Below are positions 2,868 to 38,995 of a DNA stretch of 44,611 bases, piece after piece. The translations under genes and the position numbers were made by a program. The first letter of the stretch is position 1, and each line of letters opens with the position of its first letter. The notes under the pieces were generated by a model. The model was not told the DNA's origin and ran no database searches. It saw only the letters and a program-made list of their open reading frames with translations. Source of the stretch: Lentisphaeria bacterium (GTDB lineage Bacteria > Verrucomicrobiota > Lentisphaeria > Victivallales > Victivallaceae); NCBI GenBank assembly GCA_022768375.1, contig JALEMG010000035.1, positions 1-44,611 on the forward strand, given 5' to 3'.

Positions 2868-4765
2868 GCCGGATCAGAGTGATGAGCCGGCTGCTGAGCA
2901 ACCGGATCGCCGCCGGGGAGGTCATCGAACGCCCGGCGTCGGTAGTCAAGGAACTGGTGGAGAATTCCCTCGACGCCGGGGCCACCGAGATCACCGTCGA
3001 AATCGAACGCGCCGGCAACCGGCTGATCGCCGTCACCGACAACGGCTGCGGCATGGACCCGGAAGACGCGGTGCTGGCGCTCCAGCGCCACGGCACCAGC
3101 AAATTGCTGGACGAGAAGGACCTCGATCACATCATGACCCTCGGCTTCCGGGGGGAGGCCCTGCCCTCCATCGCTTCGGTGAGCAAATTCAGTCTGACCA
3201 CCCGTCCGCCGGAGGCGGCGGGGGGTACGCAGGTCTACTGCGAAGAAGACGGAGAACTGCACTCCCGGCCCGGCGGCGGAGCGCCGGGAACGCGCATCGA
3301 GGTGCGGGACCTTTTCTGCAATCTGCCCGCCCGCCGGAAATTTCTGAAATCCCCGGCCACCGAGGAGCATCACATCGGGGAGGTGCTGACCATGCTGGCC
3401 GTCGCCCACCCGGAGACCGGATTCAAACTGATCATCGACGGGCGGACGGCCATGCACACGCCGGCGGTCCCCGACGTCGCGCCCCGTCTGCGGGAACTTT
3501 TCGGGAAGAACTTCGTGGACAACATGTTGTTCTTTGAACACACGGAACACGACATCCACCTCTCCGGCTGCGTGGCCGCGCCCGGATTCACCCGCCCGTC
3601 CCGCCGGGAACAGCGAATTTTCATCAACTCCCGGCCGGTGGAGCCGCAGGCCGTCTACCGGGGCATCCGGGAAGGCTACGGCGCGCTGGCCGAATCCGGC
3701 CGGTTCAATCCGGTGGTGATCTTCCTTGAGATGCCGCCGGACCAACTGGACGTCAACGTCCATCCGACGAAACGGGAAGTCCGGTTCAAATCGGAATACA
3801 CGGTGAGCCGCGCGGTGGCCGCCGCCGTTTCCGCCGCGCTGCGGCAGGCGCGGGACCCGGCGGCCCTGCCCGCGCCCGACGCGGCGGACGGACTGCCGCT
3901 CTCCGGCAAACTGCCGCTTTCGCTGGTGCTGGACGCGGCGGAGATATCCTACACGCCGCCCACGGCGGTCCAGCACGAACTGCCGGCAGTCGCGCCGCCG
4001 TCCGCGCCCGAAGCCCCGCCCCTGCCGGAGAAACCATCCCCGCCGGAGGAACTGTCCCCGCAGTCCGCGCCGGAGCCGGAACCTTTTCCCGCAACGCCCG
4101 CCGCGACGACGACGGCGGAGGACCTCCCGGCGGCGCGGATGAAATTCTCGCCGCTGGTCAGGGAGAGCCGTCCCGCCGCATTCAGCGGCAACTGGCCGGA
4201 CCGGATCATCGGCGCGGTGGACGAGACCTATATTCTCGGAGAATCCGCCGCCGGACTGGTGCTGATCGACCAGCATGCCGCCCACGAGAGGATCATGTTC
4301 GAGAAAATCCTCGCCGGGGCCGCCGCAAAAAAAGCCGCGGCACAGGCTCTGCTCCTGCCGGAAACGGTGGAACTGCCGCTGGCGATGGTCAAACTGCTGG
4401 AGGGGAACCGGGAGTTGTTCGCCCTGCTTGGCTTCGAAGTGGAGAGCGCCGGAGGCGCCGCGGTGCTGGTCAACTCCATTCCGCTGGTCCCCTGCGCCCA
4501 CCGGCCGGTGGGGGTGTGGCTTTACGACATGCTCAACGAACTGCTGGAGGAGTCCGACCGTTCCGGCATGATCGCCCCGGAATTCGCCGCCCGCGCCGCC
4601 TGCAAAGCCGCGGTCAAGGCACACGAACACCTGACGCTCCCGGAGATGGAGACCCTGCTCGCCCAACTGCGGCAGTGTCGGCAGGGGACGCTCTGTCCCC
4701 ACGGCCGCCCCACGATGGTGGAAGTGCCCAAAAGGGAGATCGAGCGGAGGTTCGGCCGCCGGTGA
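2864..4765 (+). CDS. mutL: DNA mismatch repair protein MutL
   Basis: A 633-aa GHKL ATPase that links MutS mismatch recognition to strand incision. N-terminal motifs are NSLDAGA (34-40), DNGCGM (59-64) and GFRGEAL (94-100), followed by HPTKREVRF in the second domain. A Pro/Ala-rich linker occupies roughly residues 345-440. The C-terminal dimerisation domain contains DQHAAHERIMFE (from Asp469), which fits the DQHA-x2-E-x4-E endonuclease motif, plus an ACKAAVKAHE segment and CPHGRPT (Cys611). This MutL therefore probably has its own nicking activity, as in bacteria lacking MutH. The start at 2864 overlaps the preceding stop (ATGA); the frame is open further upstream only inside the preceding gene. 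No mutS is nearby. Confidence 0.95.
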   Translation: MSRIRVMSRLLSNRIAAGEVIERPASVVKELVENSLDAGATEITVEIERAGNRLIAVTDNGCGMDPEDAVLALQRHGTSKLLDEKDLDHIMTLGFRGEALPSIASVSKFSLTTRPPEAAGGTQVYCEEDGELHSRPGGGAPGTRIEVRDLFCNLPARRKFLKSPATEEHHIGEVLTMLAVAHPETGFKLIIDGRTAMHTPAVPDVAPRLRELFGKNFVDNMLFFEHTEHDIHLSGCVAAPGFTRPSRREQRIFINSRPVEPQAVYRGIREGYGALAESGRFNPVVIFLEMPPDQLDVNVHPTKREVRFKSEYTVSRAVAAAVSAALRQARDPAALPAPDAADGLPLSGKLPLSLVLDAAEISYTPPTAVQHELPAVAPPSAPEAPPLPEKPSPPEELSPQSAPEPEPFPATPAATTTAEDLPAARMKFSPLVRESRPAAFSGNWPDRIIGAVDETYILGESAAGLVLIDQHAAHERIMFEKILAGAAAKKAAAQALLLPETVELPLAMVKLLEGNRELFALLGFEVESAGGAAVLVNSIPLVPCAHRPVGVWLYDMLNELLEESDRSGMIAPEFAARAACKAAVKAHEHLTLPEMETLLAQLRQCRQGTLCPHGRPTMVEVPKREIERRFGRR

Positions 4766-4801: not shown

Positions 4802-4815
4802 ATATGCCGGAAGGT

Positions 4816-4951
4816 TTCTTCAGGGTGAGGTGACGCGGGAACTTCCCGCGAATTCCTGGACCGGCGGTGAAAGTCCGCGAGCGCCAAAGAGTCCGGCGCC
4901 GACATGGTGCGATTCCATGACCGACAGTACAGTCTGGATGGGAGAAGGAAC
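4816..4951 (+). ncRNA. FMN riboswitch (RFN element)
   Basis: The conserved RFN core segments are recognisable in order: TTCAGGGTGAGGTGA at the 5' side, ACCGGCGGTGAAAGTCCGCGAGC, a variable arm, GACCGACAGTACAGTCTGGA and the closing GATGGGAGAAGGA. This is the FMN-binding aptamer that represses riboflavin genes. It is followed at 4952-4985 by a hairpin with stem CCGGACC/GGTCCGG and no T tract, which could be part of the expression platform. The controlled gene is presumably ribBA, but repeat R1 lies between them, so the start codon is about 370 nt downstream of the aptamer. Normally the aptamer lies much closer to its gene. Confidence 0.92.
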
Positions 4952-5057
4952 CCGGACCGGGGCGGACCGCGCCCGGAAGGTCCGGCATCCGTCCTCCGTC
5001 CTCATCCTGCCGGAACATGGGCATGAACCGGAAAGGCTCCGCGCTGAAAAGGGCTGA

Positions 5058-5290
5058 AAAATAAAAAAATTCTGCCGCCGGGTGCTACCCGGACGTGGTC
5101 CAGCGGCTTACTTCTTTTCTCGCGGGAAAAGAAGTAAGACAAGAAAAGGCGACTGCGTTACTTTCTTTCGCAAAAGAAAGTAACCAAAGAAAGGGCGGGG
5201 TTGCTTGTCCGCCGTAGCCTCGGCGAAGGCGGAAGCGGGAGGCGGTATAATGGGCGTACGGAACGGAAAATCAGGCAATGTTTAGTACAG
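5058..5290 (+). repeat. composite hairpin repeat R1 (one module)
   Basis: First of four related intergenic repeats. It begins with an A-rich run, then CGGGTGCTACCCGGACGTG, then a hairpin of CTTACTTCTTTT type (arms at 5107-5138), then a perfect hairpin GTTACTTTCTTT/AAAGAAAGTAAC (5157-5184), a GC-rich segment, and ends AATGTTTAGTACAG. The region between the first block and the first hairpin that is present in R2 and R4 is missing here. It contains one TATAAT (5246-5251) without a matching -35 box. The element separates the FMN riboswitch from ribBA. ORFs inside it are by-products of the repeat. Confidence 0.85.
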
Positions 5291-5319
5291 AGTCAAGCGA
5301 AAATTTGCCGGAGGAGTTT

Positions 5320-6510
5320 ATGGATTTTGCATTCGATCCCGTGGAAGCGGTCATTGAGGACATCCGGGCGGGAAAAATGGTTATCGTCACCGATGACGAG
5401 AACCGGGAAAACGAAGGCGATCTGGTCTGCGCGGCCGGGTTGATCACCCCGGAAAAGATCAACTTCATGATCACCCACGCCCGGGGGTTGGTCTGCGCGC
5501 CGATCACCGAGGCAAGGGCAAGGGAACTGGGCATCCTGCGGCCGCCGTCCACCGATCACTTCAAAACCGCGTTCACCGAAAGTCTGGACGCGCTGAGCGG
5601 AACGACCGGCATCAGCGCTTCCGACCGGGCCAACACGGTCAGAGCGCTGAACGATCCGGCGTGCAAGCGGGAAGATTTCGGCATTCCGGGGCATATTTTC
5701 CCCATCGCGGCCCGGCCGGGCGGGGTGCTCCAGCGCACCGGCCACACCGAAGCCGCCGTGGACCTGGCGAAACTGGCGGGCCTGACCCCGGCGGGGGTGA
5801 TCTGCGAGATCACGAAGGAAAACGGGGAAATGGCCCGGCTTCCCGATCTGATGGCGTTCAAGGCGAAGCACGGCCTGAAGATCATGACCATCGCCGATCT
5901 GGTGGCCTATCGGCGGCGGACGGAACATCTGGTCGTCTGCGAGGAATCGGTCAAACTGCCCACCGCCTACGGCGATTTCCAGATGTACCTGTACCGTTCC
6001 AAGATCGACGGAGCGTCCCATCTGGCGCTGGTCTGCGGTGACGTCCGGGGCAAGGATCATGTGCTGGTGCGGGTCCACAGCGAATGCCTGACCGGGGATG
6101 TATTCGGGTCGGCCCGGTGCGACTGCGGCGACCAACTGCACCGGGCAATGCGGATGATCTCCGCCGAAGGGTGCGGCGTACTGGTCTACATGCGGCAGGA
6201 GGGCCGGGGCATCGGCCTGGAGAATAAACTGCACGCCTACAAACTGCAGGAACAGGGGTGCGACACGGTGGAGGCCAATGAAAAACTTGGCTTCCCCGCC
6301 GATCTGCGGGAGTACGGCATCGGCGCGCAGATATTGCTGGACCTCGGCGTCAAAAGCGTCCGGCTGCTGACCAACAACCCGGCCAAACTCATCGGCATCG
6401 ACGGGTACGGTCTCCGCATCGAGGAAAGGGTCCCCATCGTCATCGACCCGGGCAGGGACAACGCCTTCTATCTGCGGACCAAAAAAGAACGCATGGGGCA
6501 TTTGCTGTGA
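5320..6510 (+). CDS. ribBA: bifunctional DHBP synthase / GTP cyclohydrolase II
   Basis: A 396-aa fusion that makes both precursors of riboflavin: ribulose 5-phosphate to 3,4-dihydroxy-2-butanone 4-phosphate (RibB part, about 1-200) and GTP to the diaminopyrimidine (RibA part, about 205-396). RibB motifs are [12 protein letters not shown] (25-36), [11 protein letters not shown] and [19 protein letters not shown]. The RibA zinc site is Cys256, Cys267 and Cys269 in [15 protein letters not shown], and [12 protein letters not shown] follows. A GGAGGAG box six bases before the ATG at 5320 decides the start; the upstream ATG at 5278 falls inside the repeat. Its stop overlaps the GTG start of the next gene (GTGA). 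It is probably repressed by FMN through the upstream riboswitch. Confidence 0.96.
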
Positions 6511-7352
6511 AACTGCAACTGCCGCGCGGCATGAAAATCGCGGCGGTCGCCCCCGCCGGACGGACGGACATAGAAACCGTGGCCGCCGGAGCGGAGGCTC
6601 TGCGCCGGTCCGGAGCGGATGTCGCGGTCATGCCGCATGTCGGCGCGGGCGCGGCCCTGCCGTTTCTGGACGCGGACGACGCGGCGCGGGCGGCGGACTT
6701 CATGCTCGCGGCGCGGGAAAGCGATCTCGTCTGGGCGGTGCGCGGCGGTTACGGCGGCGCGAGAATGCTGGAACTGCTGGACTGGGAGTTTCTGCGGCGG
6801 CATCCGGTGCGATTGGCCGGATTCAGCGACGTGACCGCGCTGCACTGGGCGCTCGTCGCAAAAAACGCGGGCGAAGCGGTCAGCGCGCCGATGTTCAAAT
6901 TTCTGGCGGAATTGACCGACGAATTCTCCGTGACCTCGCTGGCCGCCGCGCTCGCCGCCGCCCCCGTGGAACTGCGCCTGCCCGCACTGCGGCCCGGCCG
7001 GGCCGAGGGTCCGGCGCTGGCGGGCAATCTGACCGTGGCGGCGTCGCTGGCCGGAACCGCGTACTTCCCCGATCTCGCCGGCCGGGTGGTCTGTCTGGAG
7101 GACGTGGGCGAAAAACCCTACCGGGTCGACCGGGCGCTGAACCAACTGAGACTGGCCGGGGCTTTCGACCGGTGCGCGGCGGTGGTGTTCGGCGACTTCA
7201 CCGACTGCGGGGACCCGGCGGAACTGGCGGCGGTGCTGCGGGAGTTCGCGGGCAAAATCAAAAGCCCGGTTTTCACCGGGCTCGCATTCGGTCACAAACT
7301 GCCGTTTTACGCGCTCTCCTCGCGCCAGAGCGTCACCGTATCTTCTCGATGA
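6507..7352 (+). CDS. LD-carboxypeptidase (MEROPS S66, LdcA/MccF type)
   Basis: A 281-aa serine peptidase of the family that removes the terminal D-Ala from muropeptide tetrapeptides in cell-wall recycling; related MccF enzymes cleave microcin C. The presumed triad is Ser107 in [10 protein letters not shown], Glu198 in [13 protein letters not shown] and His263 in [10 protein letters not shown]. The [10 protein letters not shown] motif (79-88) lies before the nucleophile as in E. coli LdcA. No signal peptide is seen, consistent with a cytoplasmic enzyme. I use the GTG at 6507 that overlaps the ribBA stop; an ATG at 6531 has no ribosome binding site. The C-terminus ends soon after the His region, about 20 residues earlier than E. 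coli LdcA, and the last 20 bp overlap the convergent gene. Confidence 0.85.
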
Positions 7353-8475
7353 CCGCCGCTTTGCGGGCGGAAAAAGGCTTCTCCGCTCCGGAAAACTCCA
7401 CGATCCGCAGCCGGTCCGAACCGAAGAATTTCCGGTCGATGCTGATGACGGCGCAGTAGCAGAACTTGCCCGCAACGGTGTTTTTCTCCGCCGGGATCAG
7501 CACGGCCTCCCCGCCGTCCAGCGTGGCTTTTTCCACTTTGCCCACGGTGAAACCGTGATACTGGGCCAGCGCGCGGACGAACATCCCGCTCCAGAATTCC
7601 AGCGTGCCGTCGTCCGGGATATCCCGCTCCTGCATGACCAGCAGACAGTCGTCGGCGGTGACGGCGGTATAGACGCCGACCCGCCGGAAGCCGGTGGCGG
7701 CGGTGATGAAGTCCGTCGGCGCGGCCAGACCGAACAGCGGCTTTTCCTCATCCCCGGCCGTTGTGGAGGCCAAACTGTCCTGAAGGAAGGGGAAGTAACG
7801 CAGCGTCCCCGCGTCGGCCTGCTCCGGCTCCTCGGCGGTCAGCGTGATATTGAAGGTGACGAAATCCACCCGCTTGCGGCTGTTCTGCAGTTGGGCGGTA
7901 AGTCGTTCGATCTCGGTGGTGACGCGGTTGAGTTCCTTCTCCACCTTGAGCATGTCCTCCACTTGATTCGCCTGACTCAGCAGCGCGGCCAGCCGGTCGC
8001 GGAGTTTTTTCAGATTGTCCAGACGCACGCCCAAATCGGCGATGGTGTCGGTCATGTCCTCGGCGGACAGGGTGAAATCGCTCATCTTGCCCGCGCCGCT
8101 CACGATCCTGACGAAGTTGTCGGCCTGAGCGGTCGGGACCTTCACGGTCATGGCGCGGTTGCGGACCGTCAGGACGTAGCCGCCCAGTTTCTCCGCCTCG
8201 GCCTTGATGAATCCGACGGCGTCCTCGGCGGTACGGACCGTGAGGGTGAAACTGGAGGTATAGGCCATCAGCCGGTCGCCCTGCGGCTTGAAGTAGCCGC
8301 CCGAGTTCGCGGCGGACGCGGACTTGGCCAATCCCTGCGGCGCCGCCCGGAACGAAGCCGTCCGCGCCGCGGGCGCGGAATCCGCCGTTTCGGAATATCC
8401 CGCTCCGATGTCCAAATCACAGCATCCCGCCGCCGCGACCAGCGCGGTCAGCCCGTACAATCCCATCAGTTTCAT
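7333..8475 (-). CDS. DUF4349-type lipoprotein
   Basis: A 380-aa predicted lipoprotein. The ATG at 8475 follows GGAGGAAG and opens MKLMGLYGLTALVAAAGCC, a short signal with a lipobox ending at Cys18 or Cys19. The middle (about 70-250) has the DUF4349 pattern: a conserved beta region (SFTLTVRTAEDAV...GGYVLT), then a Leu/Lys-rich coiled coil (about 150-210, LDNLKKLRDRL...VEKELNRVTTEIERL), and a DFVTFNITL strand. This family is of unknown function and is often envelope-anchored. The last 110 residues form a separate region that I do not recognise. It is transcribed from its own promoter at 8516-8543, divergent from recJ, and overlaps the LD-carboxypeptidase gene tail to tail. Confidence 0.8.
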   Translation of the reverse strand: MKLMGLYGLTALVAAAGCCDLDIGAGYSETADSAPAARTASFRAAPQGLAKSASAANSGGYFKPQGDRLMAYTSSFTLTVRTAEDAVGFIKAEAEKLGGYVLTVRNRAMTVKVPTAQADNFVRIVSGAGKMSDFTLSAEDMTDTIADLGVRLDNLKKLRDRLAALLSQANQVEDMLKVEKELNRVTTEIERLTAQLQNSRKRVDFVTFNITLTAEEPEQADAGTLRYFPFLQDSLASTTAGDEEKPLFGLAAPTDFITAATGFRRVGVYTAVTADDCLLVMQERDIPDDGTLEFWSGMFVRALAQYHGFTVGKVEKATLDGGEAVLIPAEKNTVAGKFCYCAVISIDRKFFGSDRLRIVEFSGAEKPFSARKAAVIEKIR

Positions 8476-15686: not shown

Positions 15687-15713
15687 ATTTTTCCCGAATT
15701 CTTCCCGAAGGCG

Positions 15714-16219
15714 CTGTACTAAACATTACCTGATTTTTAATCCGCTCGGTCAGCCGCCTCCCGCTTCCGCCGTCGCCGAGGCTATGGCGGACAAGCAACG
15801 CCGCCCTTTCTTTGGTTACTTTCTTTTTCGAAAGAAAGTAACGTTATCGCCTTTTCTTGTCTTACTTCTTTTCCCGCGAGAGCGGCAACGTGCCGCCGCG
15901 AAACAACGGCCCGGCTCCGTTGTCGCCGGGCCGGTTTGCATTTTCCACAGTTTTCTTTGGTTACTTTCTTTTTTGAAAGAAAGTAACGCAGTCGCCTTTT
16001 CTTGTCTTACTTCTTTTCCCGCGAGAAAAGAAGTAAGCCGCCTCCCGCTCAACCGTCCCGGAAAGGATTTCCGGGACATCGCTTCCGGCGGGAGGTGTCG
16101 GCCTGCGCCGACTTGAACGCTTCGCTCTTGTTTCGCCGCGTTAAGCGGCGACCAGCGTTCCGCCGCTGGACCACGTCCGGGTAGCACCCGGAGGCAGATT
16201 TCTTTTTTTTATTTTTTTT
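15714..16219 (-). repeat. composite hairpin repeat R2 (two modules)
   Basis: Read on the minus strand it starts in an A-rich run directly after the priA stop. Next come CGGGTGCTACCCGGACGTG, a GC-rich structured block, and the CTTACTTC-type hairpin (16006-16037). Two GTTACTTTC...GAAAGTAAC hairpins follow (15960-15987 and 15815-15842, 145 bp apart), and the element ends AATGTTTAGTACAG. It carries the most complete 5' block of the family together with R4. The intergenic stretch 15546-16220 holds nothing else but the terminator and promoter listed. Confidence 0.88.
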
Positions 16220-20176: not shown

Positions 20177-20220
20177 TTCAACACCTCCGTCAATATTTTC
20201 ATCTCGGCTCCGTACCAAAT

Positions 20221-20568
20221 CCTGTCTGACTTTTCATTTAACGCGGTCAGCCGCCGCCCGCTTCCGCCGTCGTCAAGGCTATGGCGGACAAGCAACCCCC
20301 ACGTTTTCTTTGGTTACTTTCTTTTGCGAAAGAAAGTAACGTAGTCGCCTTTTCTTGTCTTACTTCTTTTCCCGCGAGAAAAGAGCGGCAACGTGCCGCC
20401 GCGAAACTGAGGCCCGGCTCCGTTGTCGCCGGTCCGGTTTGCATCCCCGCGTTTTCTTTGGTTACTTTCTTTTGCGAAAGAAAGTAACGCAGTCGCCTTT
20501 TCTTGTCTTACTTCTTTTCCCGCGAGAAAAGAAGTAAGCGCCCGGAGGCGGATTTCTTTTTTTATTTT
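20221..20568 (-). repeat. composite hairpin repeat R3 (two modules)
   Basis: On the minus strand it begins in the A-rich run touching the stop codon of the SirB1-like gene. It has the CTTACTTC hairpin (20507-20538) and two GTTACTTTC hairpins (20461-20488 and 20313-20340, 148 bp apart). The GC-rich tail is shared with the others, but the final segment has diverged. The 5' CGGGTGCTACCCGG block is reduced to a short remnant. It fills almost the whole gap between two minus-strand genes. Confidence 0.85.
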
Positions 20569-21399
20569 TCAGTCCTCTTTTGCTTCAGGCTCCGGCGCCG
20601 TGGCCCGGAACGGATACGGGAACCGGTCGAAAACATGCTCGCTGTCGTCGCCGCCCAGCGCCTGCGCAATACTCATCACATACCGGTAACTGTCGCTGTT
20701 CACCGCGCAGGAGAGCAGCGTGGCGGCGACGTAACGCAGGATCATCCGGGAGTTCCAGAACTCCAGCGCCCGGACCTCCGGGGCCGGACAGAGCCGCCAC
20801 GCGCCCCCGCCCAGCAGAATACCGCCCCGACCGTCGATCAGGGCGAATTCGTCCAGCGTCCGCACCACGCGCAAACCCGCGCCGCCGGCCAGTTCCGCCG
20901 CCAGCGCCAGCAGGACCGAACCGGCGCCGGCCCGACGGTCGAGAATGGTGCCGAGGCAGTAACTCTCCGGTACGATGGTGCTTTCCGGTTCCGGCAGGAA
21001 ACTCCGCCGCCGCAGAAAGAACTCCACCTCCTCCAGCGAAGTCGGTCCGCCGGAGCGGAAGTCGGCGGCGAACTCCTCCGCCGCCGTATGCAGCGCCGCC
21101 GCCGAATCCCGGTCGAACCACAGCAGATGCAGTTCCTCCAGTCCGGCCAGCAGGTCCGGATTCGCATCCGCCGTCAGCCGGCGGTGAAAATCCCGCCGCC
21201 GCCGCCGCATGGTCAGCGCGCTCTGCAACTGGTGCGCCCGGCGGCGGACCACCGGGTCGGCGCTCTCCTGCAGCACCGCCGGGAGGTCCTCCAGTTCGTC
21301 GGCCCGTTCCAGAAGTTGCGCCAGCAGATTGACGCCGACATTCTCGTCCGCGTCGTCCAGCATGGAGGCGATGCGCAGGATGTCAGGCGGGATTGCCAT
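20569..21399 (-). CDS. SirB1/transglutaminase-like protein (tentative)
   Basis: A 276-aa protein without signal peptide. The first half is helical (LDDADENVGVNLLAQLLERADELEDLP), reminiscent of the N-terminal part of SirB1-type proteins. Residues around 165-220 (ESYCLGTILDRRAGAGSVLLALAAEL) resemble the SirB1 pattern 'NSYLNRVLERRRGIPISLA', followed by a 'DEFALID' strand where the family has its HFLL. The typical catalytic His is not evident, so activity is doubtful. The ATG at 21399 overlaps the end of the exonuclease gene by 17 bp, so the two are co-transcribed. The C-terminal 70 residues are not recognised. Confidence 0.5.
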   Translation of the reverse strand: MAIPPDILRIASMLDDADENVGVNLLAQLLERADELEDLPAVLQESADPVVRRRAHQLQSALTMRRRRRDFHRRLTADANPDLLAGLEELHLLWFDRDSAAALHTAAEEFAADFRSGGPTSLEEVEFFLRRRSFLPEPESTIVPESYCLGTILDRRAGAGSVLLALAAELAGGAGLRVVRTLDEFALIDGRGGILLGGGAWRLCPAPEVRALEFWNSRMILRYVAATLLSCAVNSDSYRYVMSIAQALGGDDSEHVFDRFPYPFRATAPEPEAKED

Positions 21400-38305: not shown

Positions 38306-38995
38306 AAATAAGAATAAGAATAAAAATTAAAAAAAGAAACCTGCCACCGGGTGCTACCCGGACGTGATCCAGCGGCGGAACGCTGGGCGCCGCTTAAGGC
38401 GGCGAAACAGGCGCGACGCGTTCAGGTCGGCGCAAGCCGACACCTCCCGCCGGGAGCGATGTTGCGAAAAATCGCAGATTTTTCACAACGGTTGAGCGGA
38501 CGGCGTCTTACTTCTTTTCTCGCGGGAAAAGAAGTAAGACAAGAAAAGGCGACTACGTTACTTTCTTTTGCCAACAAAAGAAAGTAACCAAAGAAAACGT
38601 GGGGGTGCAGACCGGACCGGCGACAACGGAGCCGGGCCGTTATTTCGCGGCGGCACGTTGCCGCTCTCGCGGGAAAAGAAGTAAGACAGGAAAAGGCGAA
38701 TGCGTTACTTTCTTTCGCAAAAGAAAGTAACCGAAGAAAACGCGGGGATGCAGACCGGACCGGCGACAACGGAGCCGGGCCTCTGTTTCGCGGCGGCACG
38801 TTGCCGCTCTCGCGGGAAAAGAAGTAAGACAGGAAAAGGCGAATGCGTTATTTCCTTTCGCAAAAGAAAGTAACCAAAGAAAGGGCGGGGCAGGATTGCA
38901 AAAACCTGCTTGTCCGCCATGGCCTTGACAACGGCGGAAGCGAGAAGCGGTATGATGGGCGTACCGAACAAAAAATCAGGTAACATTCAATACAG
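38306..38995 (+). repeat. composite hairpin repeat R4 (three modules)
   Basis: The longest copy. It begins with an A-rich run directly after the ribF stop, then CGGGTGCTACCCGGACGTG, the structured GC-rich block as in R2, and the CTTACTTC hairpin (38507-38538). Three GTTACTTTC-type hairpins follow at 38557-38588, 38704-38731 and 38847-38874, spaced 147 and 143 bp. It ends in the GC-rich tail and TTCAATACAG. The third hairpin has changes in its left arm (GTTATTTCC). The gap 38306-39017 contains nothing else. Confidence 0.9.

Follow-up and report, generated by a model that had tools for sequence, protein, structure and literature searches.

ISL3 elements make target duplications of 8 bp. The pseudoknot of telomerase RNA consists of two stems and a pyrimidine-rich loop 1, which runs along the purine strand of stem 2 and forms U.A-U triples and one C+.G-C triple. 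Mirror-symmetric purine tracts are a requirement of the third strand of a triple helix, and duplication yields direct or inverted repeats, not mirror repeats. According to the accessible portions of the respective articles, telomerase RNA combines a pseudoknot with a triplex, the latter being pyrimidine-rich in Kluyveromyces lactis (PMC4689454), and U.A-U Hoogsteen triples also occur in a bacterial RNA, the Cas12e tracrRNA (PMC11246509). In the available part of the published REP definition, a GT[AG]G foot is a defining trait.

Here, we analyse a stretch of 44,611 nucleotides (termed the window, at its whole length), in which a MITE, probably of the ISL3 type, is present at four loci, R1-R4, together with a second, captured, pan-bacterial structured repeat. 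The MITE family shares with ISL3-family MITEs a short body, imperfect terminal inverted repeats, 8-bp duplications and a terminus match beside an ISL3 transposase, yet a foreign structured repeat sits in its body in tandem copies, and one terminus is gone in R2 and R4. The captured repeat, termed the hairpin unit, resembles REP/BIME repeats as a dispersed, mostly intergenic palindrome with facing pairs in Caballeronia, but differs from them by the missing GT[AG]G foot in 79/79 units (of this genome and of a Selenomonadales genome, G052), a core conserved across phyla, an X:X' helix and a mirror linker. Its predicted topology (two stems, pyrimidine loop 1, triples) would be that of the telomerase RNA pseudoknot; in contrast to telomerase RNA, the unit is a bacterial dispersed repeat with no known reverse transcriptase and no template, and the fold is a prediction. 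The Cas12e tracrRNA, likened here by its description in the accessible text, is a bacterial RNA with the U.A-U Hoogsteen triples that are predicted for the hairpin unit, but its three triples form between tracrRNA and crRNA repeat, and it is not dispersed. Conservation of the core across phyla, together with pairing and mirror covariation, renders the selection and the mover of dispersed palindromes testable.

Two separable repeats at four loci of the window

The preliminary description had listed the same ordered parts (an A-rich start, a sequence block, two hairpins and a GC-rich tail) at four loci. These parts indeed recur in the listed order, on the plus strand in R1 and R4 and on the minus strand in R2 and R3, while the ends of all four loci had to be corrected by eye (Table 1). 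A repeat search returned two families, one of 89 nt with four copies in R2 and R3 (84-98% to its reference), the other of 87 nt in R1 and R4 (78-93%); inverted matches between R1/R4 and R2/R3 extend over 106-152 nt at 89-97% (I1-I6). The hairpin unit occurs in tandem, with one copy of hairpin 2 in R1, two each in R2 and R3 and three in R4, at a spacing of 143-148 nt. In R3, the called stop codon of the upstream gene (20569) falls within the MITE end.

Table 1. Coordinates of the repeat loci R1-R4 and neighbouring features in the window
Feature	Coordinates	Strand	Remarks
FMN riboswitch (Rfam RF00050)	4812..4953	+	upstream of R1; separated by R1 from ribBA
R1, putative ISL3-type MITE copy, one hairpin unit	5035..5294	+	between FMN riboswitch and ribBA
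R1 ends	~5035 and 5294	+	left terminal repeat starts at ~5035 and is eroded, right one ends at 5294 (by eye)
R1 hairpin 1 unit	5107..5152	+	stem CTTACTTCTTTT/AAAAGAAGTAAG, mirror linker ACAAGAAAA, X' GGCGA
R1 hairpin 2 unit	5157..5192	+	stem GTTACTTTCTTT/AAAGAAAGTAAC, linker CAAAGAAA
ribBA coding sequence	5320..6510	+	downstream of R1
R2, MITE remnant, two hairpin-2 copies	15710..16219	-	right terminal repeat at 15710, left lost
R2 hairpin 1 unit	15992..16037	-	
R2 hairpin 2, first copy	15952..15987	-	
R2 hairpin 2, second copy	15807..15842	-	
R3, MITE remnant, two hairpin-2 copies	20206..20579	-	GC block reduced
R3 hairpin 1 unit	20493..20538	-	
R3 hairpin 2, first copy	20453..20488	-	
R3 hairpin 2, second copy	20305..20340	-	
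R4, MITE remnant, three hairpin-2 copies	38306..~38999	+	full GC-rich body
R4 hairpin 1 unit	38507..38552	+	
R4 hairpin 2, first copy	38557..38596	+	32-nt palindrome
R4 hairpin 2, second copy	38704..38739	+	
R4 hairpin 2, third copy	38847..38882	+	arm changes uncompensated

The notion of a dispersed, modular family that is non-autonomous, mobile and related to repeats in other bacteria was borne out, whereas the single element originally envisaged gives way to two separable repeats. The outer element is a MITE of ~240 bp with imperfect terminal inverted repeats (left GGCTCTGTACTAAAAGAG.ACTGAAAAATAAAAAATCTGCC, right ...AAAATCAGGTTTCTTTTAGTACAGAGCC), whose 17-base terminus is found at 24 places of this genome (G000; 2.25 Mb in 64 contigs) with at most two mismatches. 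Judged by eye, the right end is present with changes in R1-R3; of the left end, R1 and R3 keep an eroded form, and R2 and R4 nothing. Eight loci of this genome (L019, L020, L021, L023, L025, L027, L029 and L031) harbour hairpin-free MITE copies. The relative G020, which is the only other of 34 genus genomes with the MITE terminus (at most one mismatch), contains six loci with related copies, all of them hairpin-free. Conversely, about a dozen hairpin units of this genome lie at gene ends without a MITE. Since either repeat exists without the other, there are two repeats and not one, and a single family is ruled out.

The termini suggest that the outer element is of the ISL3 type. A single ISL3 transposase match was obtained in this genome (PF01610, E 2.9e-68), in a gene cut by the contig end, and the segment GGCCGTGTCCTAAAAGAGAACTGAAAAATAAAAAA just past its stop codon agrees with the left MITE end at ~32/35 bases, as compared by eye with a consensus of our own writing and at one end only, as the contig stops there. 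Also by eye, target duplications of 8 bp are exact in L019 (TTCCCAAA) and L027 (AACTGAAA), agree at 7/8 bases in L029 and L031 and at 6/8 in one L028 copy, and are not clear in L021, L023 and another L028 copy; the flanks of R1 agree at 5/8 bases. Shared termini and 8-bp duplications point to the ISL3-family transposase of the same genome as the putative mover of the MITE. No ISL3 gene was found in G020, though the MITE is present there. An IS1595-family mover was discarded, as neither this genome nor G020 contains a PF12762 gene.

R1 separates an FMN riboswitch from a gene which we take to be ribBA, based on the protein sequence and its riboswitch. The protein is encoded in 32 of the 34 genus genomes. 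From the riboswitch tail to ribBA the distance amounts to 371 nt in this genome, compared to 48-87 nt in eight relatives (11 of 30 loci examined, L241-L251; our own riboswitch-tail pattern is without a match in L244 and L249, and Rfam detects the riboswitch in L249, not in L244). The long gap here and the short gap in the relatives demonstrate that R1 was inserted between riboswitch and gene, where it adds ~290-320 bases (window 4812-5320), with a CCTCCGTCC-like segment on one side and the GGAGG start region on the other. R1 is a natural insertion that offers a natural test of riboswitch tolerance.

Distribution and covariation of the hairpin unit

The hairpin unit has the layout GTTACTTTCTTT-X-AAAGAAAGTAAC-CAAAGAAA-X'. 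A whole-genome search, proposed along with the preliminary description, yielded further copies: the exact palindrome GTTACTTTCTTTN..AAAGAAAGTAAC occurs 35 times in this genome, compared to 0 occurrences of the reversed pattern, and is found in 3 of the 34 genus genomes. Far beyond the genus, the 20-mer AAAGAAAGTAACCAAAGAAA is present in at least 118 stretches of species genomes, which among the matches listed belong to Burkholderiales, Xanthomonadales, Methylococcales, Neisseriales, Selenomonadales, Bacteroidota, Desulfuromonadales and others (assigned by way of record titles). Among the matches listed, 131 of 139 anchor matches of genome contigs are accompanied by the left arm (at most two substitutions); 46 anchor matches without it, duplicates still included, were omitted from one of the analyses. 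In a survey of 30 genomes, 27 of them picked for having the 20-mer, a wider unit pattern was found in 25, and the reversed control gave 0 in 30/30. Copies are most numerous in G052 (91), followed by Chitinophaga skermanii (G043; 48), Selenomonas (G054; 44), Silvimonas terrae (G045; 42) and this genome (34). Similar DNA resides on records of Ilyobacter (Fusobacteriota), Pseudoalteromonas, Variovorax and Caballeronia. On Caballeronia stretches (L042, L044, L061, L068 and others), units are arranged as facing pairs ~440-500 bp apart; in L042, the sole pair that was read, the stretches between the units form inverted repeats as well, much as in REP doublets.

Viral DNA was considered as a second source and dismissed. 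A 51-nt query of a phage collection retrieved no similar DNA, and in viral contigs the left arm accompanies only 5 of 44 matches to the 20-mer, which are therefore mostly not units. GTGAC and GTAAC forms are found there on 1 and 43 stretches, respectively, and most such matches are not units. The mirror form of hairpin 1 has 86 sites in viral contigs, two with the left arm and both of these on one contig; the direct form has 31 sites, none with the left arm.

A literature search for core strings, including GTTACTTTCTTT and GAAAGTAACCAAAG, gave no matches or articles unrelated by title and opening of the abstract, and the strings are absent from the main text of PMC2267715, PMC6006769, PMC3733652 and PMC2817692. 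Rfam returned no family over the units, either in the window at gathering score or in five loci at E 0.5. Among 13 loci, which include two of these five, there was one partial overlap: RF02421 (Bp1_684), a Burkholderia sRNA candidate, matches L042 at 6713-6820 on the other strand (48.6 bits). This listed candidate overlaps one of the two Caballeronia units in L042 and may include the hairpin repeat, but it has no match in the other 12 loci, nor in the five loci searched at E 0.5.

In L003 (~4250-4330) and L011 (~7690-7760), the hairpin unit is succeeded by another kind of repeat, CTCTGCCCCGCAGTT.GAACTGC.GGGCGTT-like. L217-L219 (G007, G022) contain paired hairpins, GTTACTTTC../..GAAAGTAAC and CCTACTTTC../..GAAAGTAGG, in which X:X' pairing is not evident; the closing pairs of the latter are changed.

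In rows aligned on the anchor, loop X and the stretch after CAAAGAAA, X', vary together (TTCGCC/GGCGA, GCTGC/GCAGC, GGTGC/GCACC, GGCAC/GTGCC, CTTGAT/ATCAAG, GCGGCC/GGCCGC). Across phyla, the helix score was 12.4 (99 distinct rows kept of 133) versus 9.0 +- 0.23 for permuted partners, none of 500 permutations scoring as high. When the register was tightened and each distinct loop entered only once (46 rows), the score was 9.9 versus 5.8 +- 0.42 (0/2000). Within G052 alone the effect was modest (2/2000, or 21/2000 with one row per loop). Hairpin 2 of this genome displays no X:X' covariation (6.08 versus 6.23 shuffled), and hairpin 1 is too uniform between copies for covariation to show; an outer helix around hairpin 2 is not supported in this genome. 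The loops of G007 and Mucilaginibacter (Bacteroidota) do not match X'. A triple-helix pseudoknot calls for pairing of the loop with a distal segment, and it is as covariation that this pairing is seen.

The complementarity of the hairpin arms in the window had been read as a sign of selection on structure. Covariation across phyla supports such selection, as do the both-sided changes in G052 and the mirror covariation of linker and stem described below, but the argument from the window copies fails: the arms hardly differ from one copy to the next, so that their complementarity cannot count as a sign of selection, and in the sole window copy with changed arms (the third hairpin 2 of R4) the changes are uncompensated.

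The compensatory changes looked for in the wake of the preliminary description were detected in the Selenomonadales genome G052, where pairs vary together beyond shuffled or slid controls. The full element of G052 extends from GTTAC to the hairpin GGCCGTCATCCATGACGGCC and spans 99-106 nt in 39 of 42 copies, three further copies having no GGCCGTCATCCATGACGGCC hairpin by our own pattern; the upstream flanks are unrelated beyond ~11 weakly conserved bases. In an alignment of 43 G052 copies (A1), 95.7% of cells hold standard pairs, and 104 cells are changed on both sides versus 30.8 in shuffles. Covariation reached 0.173, compared to 0.078 in shuffles (0/500) and 0.013-0.062 with slid partners. 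Two of the five measures do not beat the shuffles, namely pairs with both-sided change (10 versus 8.5; 72/500) and further pair types (15 versus 18.9; 500/500). The signal comes mostly from the downstream helix (7 of 13 pairs), and 11 of the 12 main-stem pairs show no change at all; X:X' counts are lowered in A1, where MAFFT misplaced 6-nt loops. Folding z-scores were -7.2 to -8.6 for three G052 copies and -3.4 for a stretch of R1. In the Selenomonadales genome, two tandem units with a duplicated flank of 37-47 nt occupy L227 5725-6011.

A second type of covariation links the linker to the purine strand of the stem. An element-like filter kept 279 of 541 hairpins; apart from three with a 6-base strand, these comprise six seven-base variants of the purine strand (AAAGAAA, AAAAGAA, AAGAAAA, AGAGAAA, AGAAAAA and AAGGAAA), and in 6/6 the majority linker is the exact mirror of the purine strand. 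In the five non-palindromic variants, the mirror matches at 35/35 positions, while a direct repeat would give 25, and 1 of 120 permutations, the true order only and hence the smallest possible value, matches as well. Four variants, amounting to 19 hairpins from Selenomonadales, Uhrbacteria, Luteimonas, Marinobacterium, Psychromonas, several betaproteobacteria and others, are contained in no search pattern and obey the mirror rule in 19/19 cases. The AAAAGAA variant, which is hairpin 1 of the window, has a mirror linker in 32/36 cases. Beside AAAGAAA, the unforced eighth position of strand and linker is A/A in 56 hairpins, G/G in 29, A/G in 6, G/A in 2 and other in 2; the agreement has a Fisher p of 6e-16, which is optimistic, as p values here generally are, because rows are related. 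In this genome alone, the counts are (A,A) 12, (G,G) 2, (A,G) 2 and (G,A) 2. The base-by-base match to the purine strand of the stem that a third strand would require is thus seen, again in the form of covariation.

Predicted fold and competing explanations

The explanation that we consider probable combines ISL3-type MITE copies with a captured pan-bacterial repeat that folds as a triple-helix pseudoknot. The triple helix is predicted from covariation: one strand of the hairpin repeat would adopt an H-type pseudoknot, in which loop X of a 12-bp hairpin pairs with X' beyond the hairpin, and the linker lies along the hairpin as a third strand. The complementary strand has the order X' - UUUCUUUG - GUUACUUUCUUU - X - AAAGAAAGURAC, and the corresponding RNA of ~60 nt would read X'-UUUCUUUG-GUUACUUUCUUU-X-AAAGAAAGUAAC. 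Here, the pyrimidine loop 1 is predicted to cross the deep groove of the 12-bp stem parallel to the purine strand, and UUUCUUU beside AAAGAAA would form U.A-U and C+.G-C triples, as in telomerase RNA. Such a fold would bring a telomerase-like pseudoknot into bacterial mobile DNA. If the strand as written were to fold instead, its linker would run through the shallow groove, which does not call for a mirror match. The folded molecule is presumably complementary-strand RNA or single-stranded DNA, and the fold may let a trans-acting factor copy or protect the element. With this putative mover and function, the hairpin repeat would be a selfish mobile element that is defined by its structure and encodes no gene. 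In this genome, it frequently borders the 3' ends of genes, and for the most part it is carried by the MITE.

At position 3, the left arm has T or C (69:63) facing an A, i.e., A.C as written and G.U on the complement, the A being forced by the anchor, which fixed the right arm in most rows. The 28 unanchored units have T-A at this pair in 17 cases, C.A in 6, T.G in 1 and others in 4. Position 3 lends slight support to the complementary strand.

The most serious competitor, possible and clearly less probable than the pseudoknot, is an element acting at the level of DNA, where a mirror-repeat H-DNA or a single-stranded pseudoknot is read by a replication, repair or transposition factor. A pseudoknot could form in either nucleic acid, and mirror purine tracts, as present in the unit, are the classic signature of H-DNA; however, seven-base mirror arms count as short for duplex H-DNA, and H-DNA does not need X:X' pairing. 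The placement of units relative to genes, called with our own small codon-usage gene finder (seeded training), is in line with a DNA element insofar as a clear strand preference is missing outside this genome. Across phyla, 33 units are sense, 26 antisense, 35 convergent and 4 divergent (a further 31 at contig edges and 10 without hairpin), and in G052 the numbers are 13, 14, 12 and 2, with 3 at edges. Divergent (promoter) gaps are rare: in G052 they hold 2 of 41 placed units, against a background of 33 of 140 gaps, which also fits a DNA element. A sense bias is confined to this genome.

Somewhat more speculative is the idea that the hairpin unit represents an undescribed, SINE-like class of bacterial mobile RNA common to many phyla, with the pseudoknot offering a reverse transcriptase a place to dock or shielding the 3' end. 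A complementary-strand transcript would then end in a telomerase-type pseudoknot, and the fold, not a DNA terminal repeat, would be under selection. In G052, 7 of 42 copies (two of the seven being one tandem locus) have direct repeats of 12-47 nt in their flanks, versus 2 of 210 swapped controls, which is compatible with target-primed copying.

It is unlikely that the unit acts post-transcriptionally, as a stabiliser or terminator at the mRNA 3' end on the sense strand of the upstream gene. In this genome, where 34 of 37 hairpin clusters could be placed, 17 are sense and 3 antisense in same-direction gaps, 12 are convergent and 2 divergent, and 29 of the 34, as well as all four window loci, follow a co-oriented gene. 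The hairpin-free MITE copies of the same genome lean alike (6 sense versus 1 antisense), though, and neither the cross-phyla set (33:26) nor G052 (13:14) supports a sense-strand element. Moreover, the strand for which the triple-helix model works is the complementary one, and this strand runs antisense to the upstream genes.

It is very improbable that the units are REP/BIME-type repeats moved by a REP-associated tyrosine transposase (RAYT). Such repeats would account for short palindromes in gaps at high copy number and for the facing units of Caballeronia. PF01797 genes are present in 19 of the 30 chosen genomes, including G054 with its 44 units, but absent from 11, several of these PF01797-free genomes being incomplete MAGs. 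Because copy-rich genomes such as G052, G043, G045 and G000 belong to those without PF01797, RAYT was rejected as a general mover. GT[AG]G lies within 2 nt of the hairpin 5' foot in 7 of 59 complete units on genome contigs, in 0/34 units of this genome and in 0/45 of G052; judged by the accessible part of the published definition, the units are therefore not REP sequences. A mover did not emerge from the flanking genes either: when 1248 predicted proteins from 169 loci were compared all against all, no gene common to the flanks was conspicuous, and none of the 25 widest clusters inspected, which by their first residues are presumably generic (transporters, dehydrogenases, kinases, regulators), points to a mover linked to the unit across genera.

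There is equally little to suggest that the covariation is an artefact of shared descent or anchoring, and the unit a decaying palindrome without folded function: stem and linker were in part dictated by the 20-mer anchor, relatedness among rows is frequent (Caballeronia; 8 of 12 AAGAAAA hairpin loci appear to come from one Selenomonadales genome) and hairpin 2 of this genome lacks X:X' covariation, but the four pattern-free mirror variants, the unforced eighth position, the X:X' permutation with one row per distinct loop and the both-sided changes in G052, above shuffles and slides, argue against it.

Hairpin units as gene ends

In nine clusters of this genome (L002, L004, L009, L011, L014, L033, L035, L037 and L039), the called upstream frame stops, by distance, at a TAA inside hairpin 1, the TAA being 17-19 nt ahead of hairpin 2; in two clusters it stops, likewise by distance, at a TAA inside hairpin 2. 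As these upstream frames end at the hairpin TAA, the unit supplies the stop codon. Stand-alone units would thus provide the called upstream genes with a new stop codon and a shared, LLLFSREKK-like protein tail, as read in L014.
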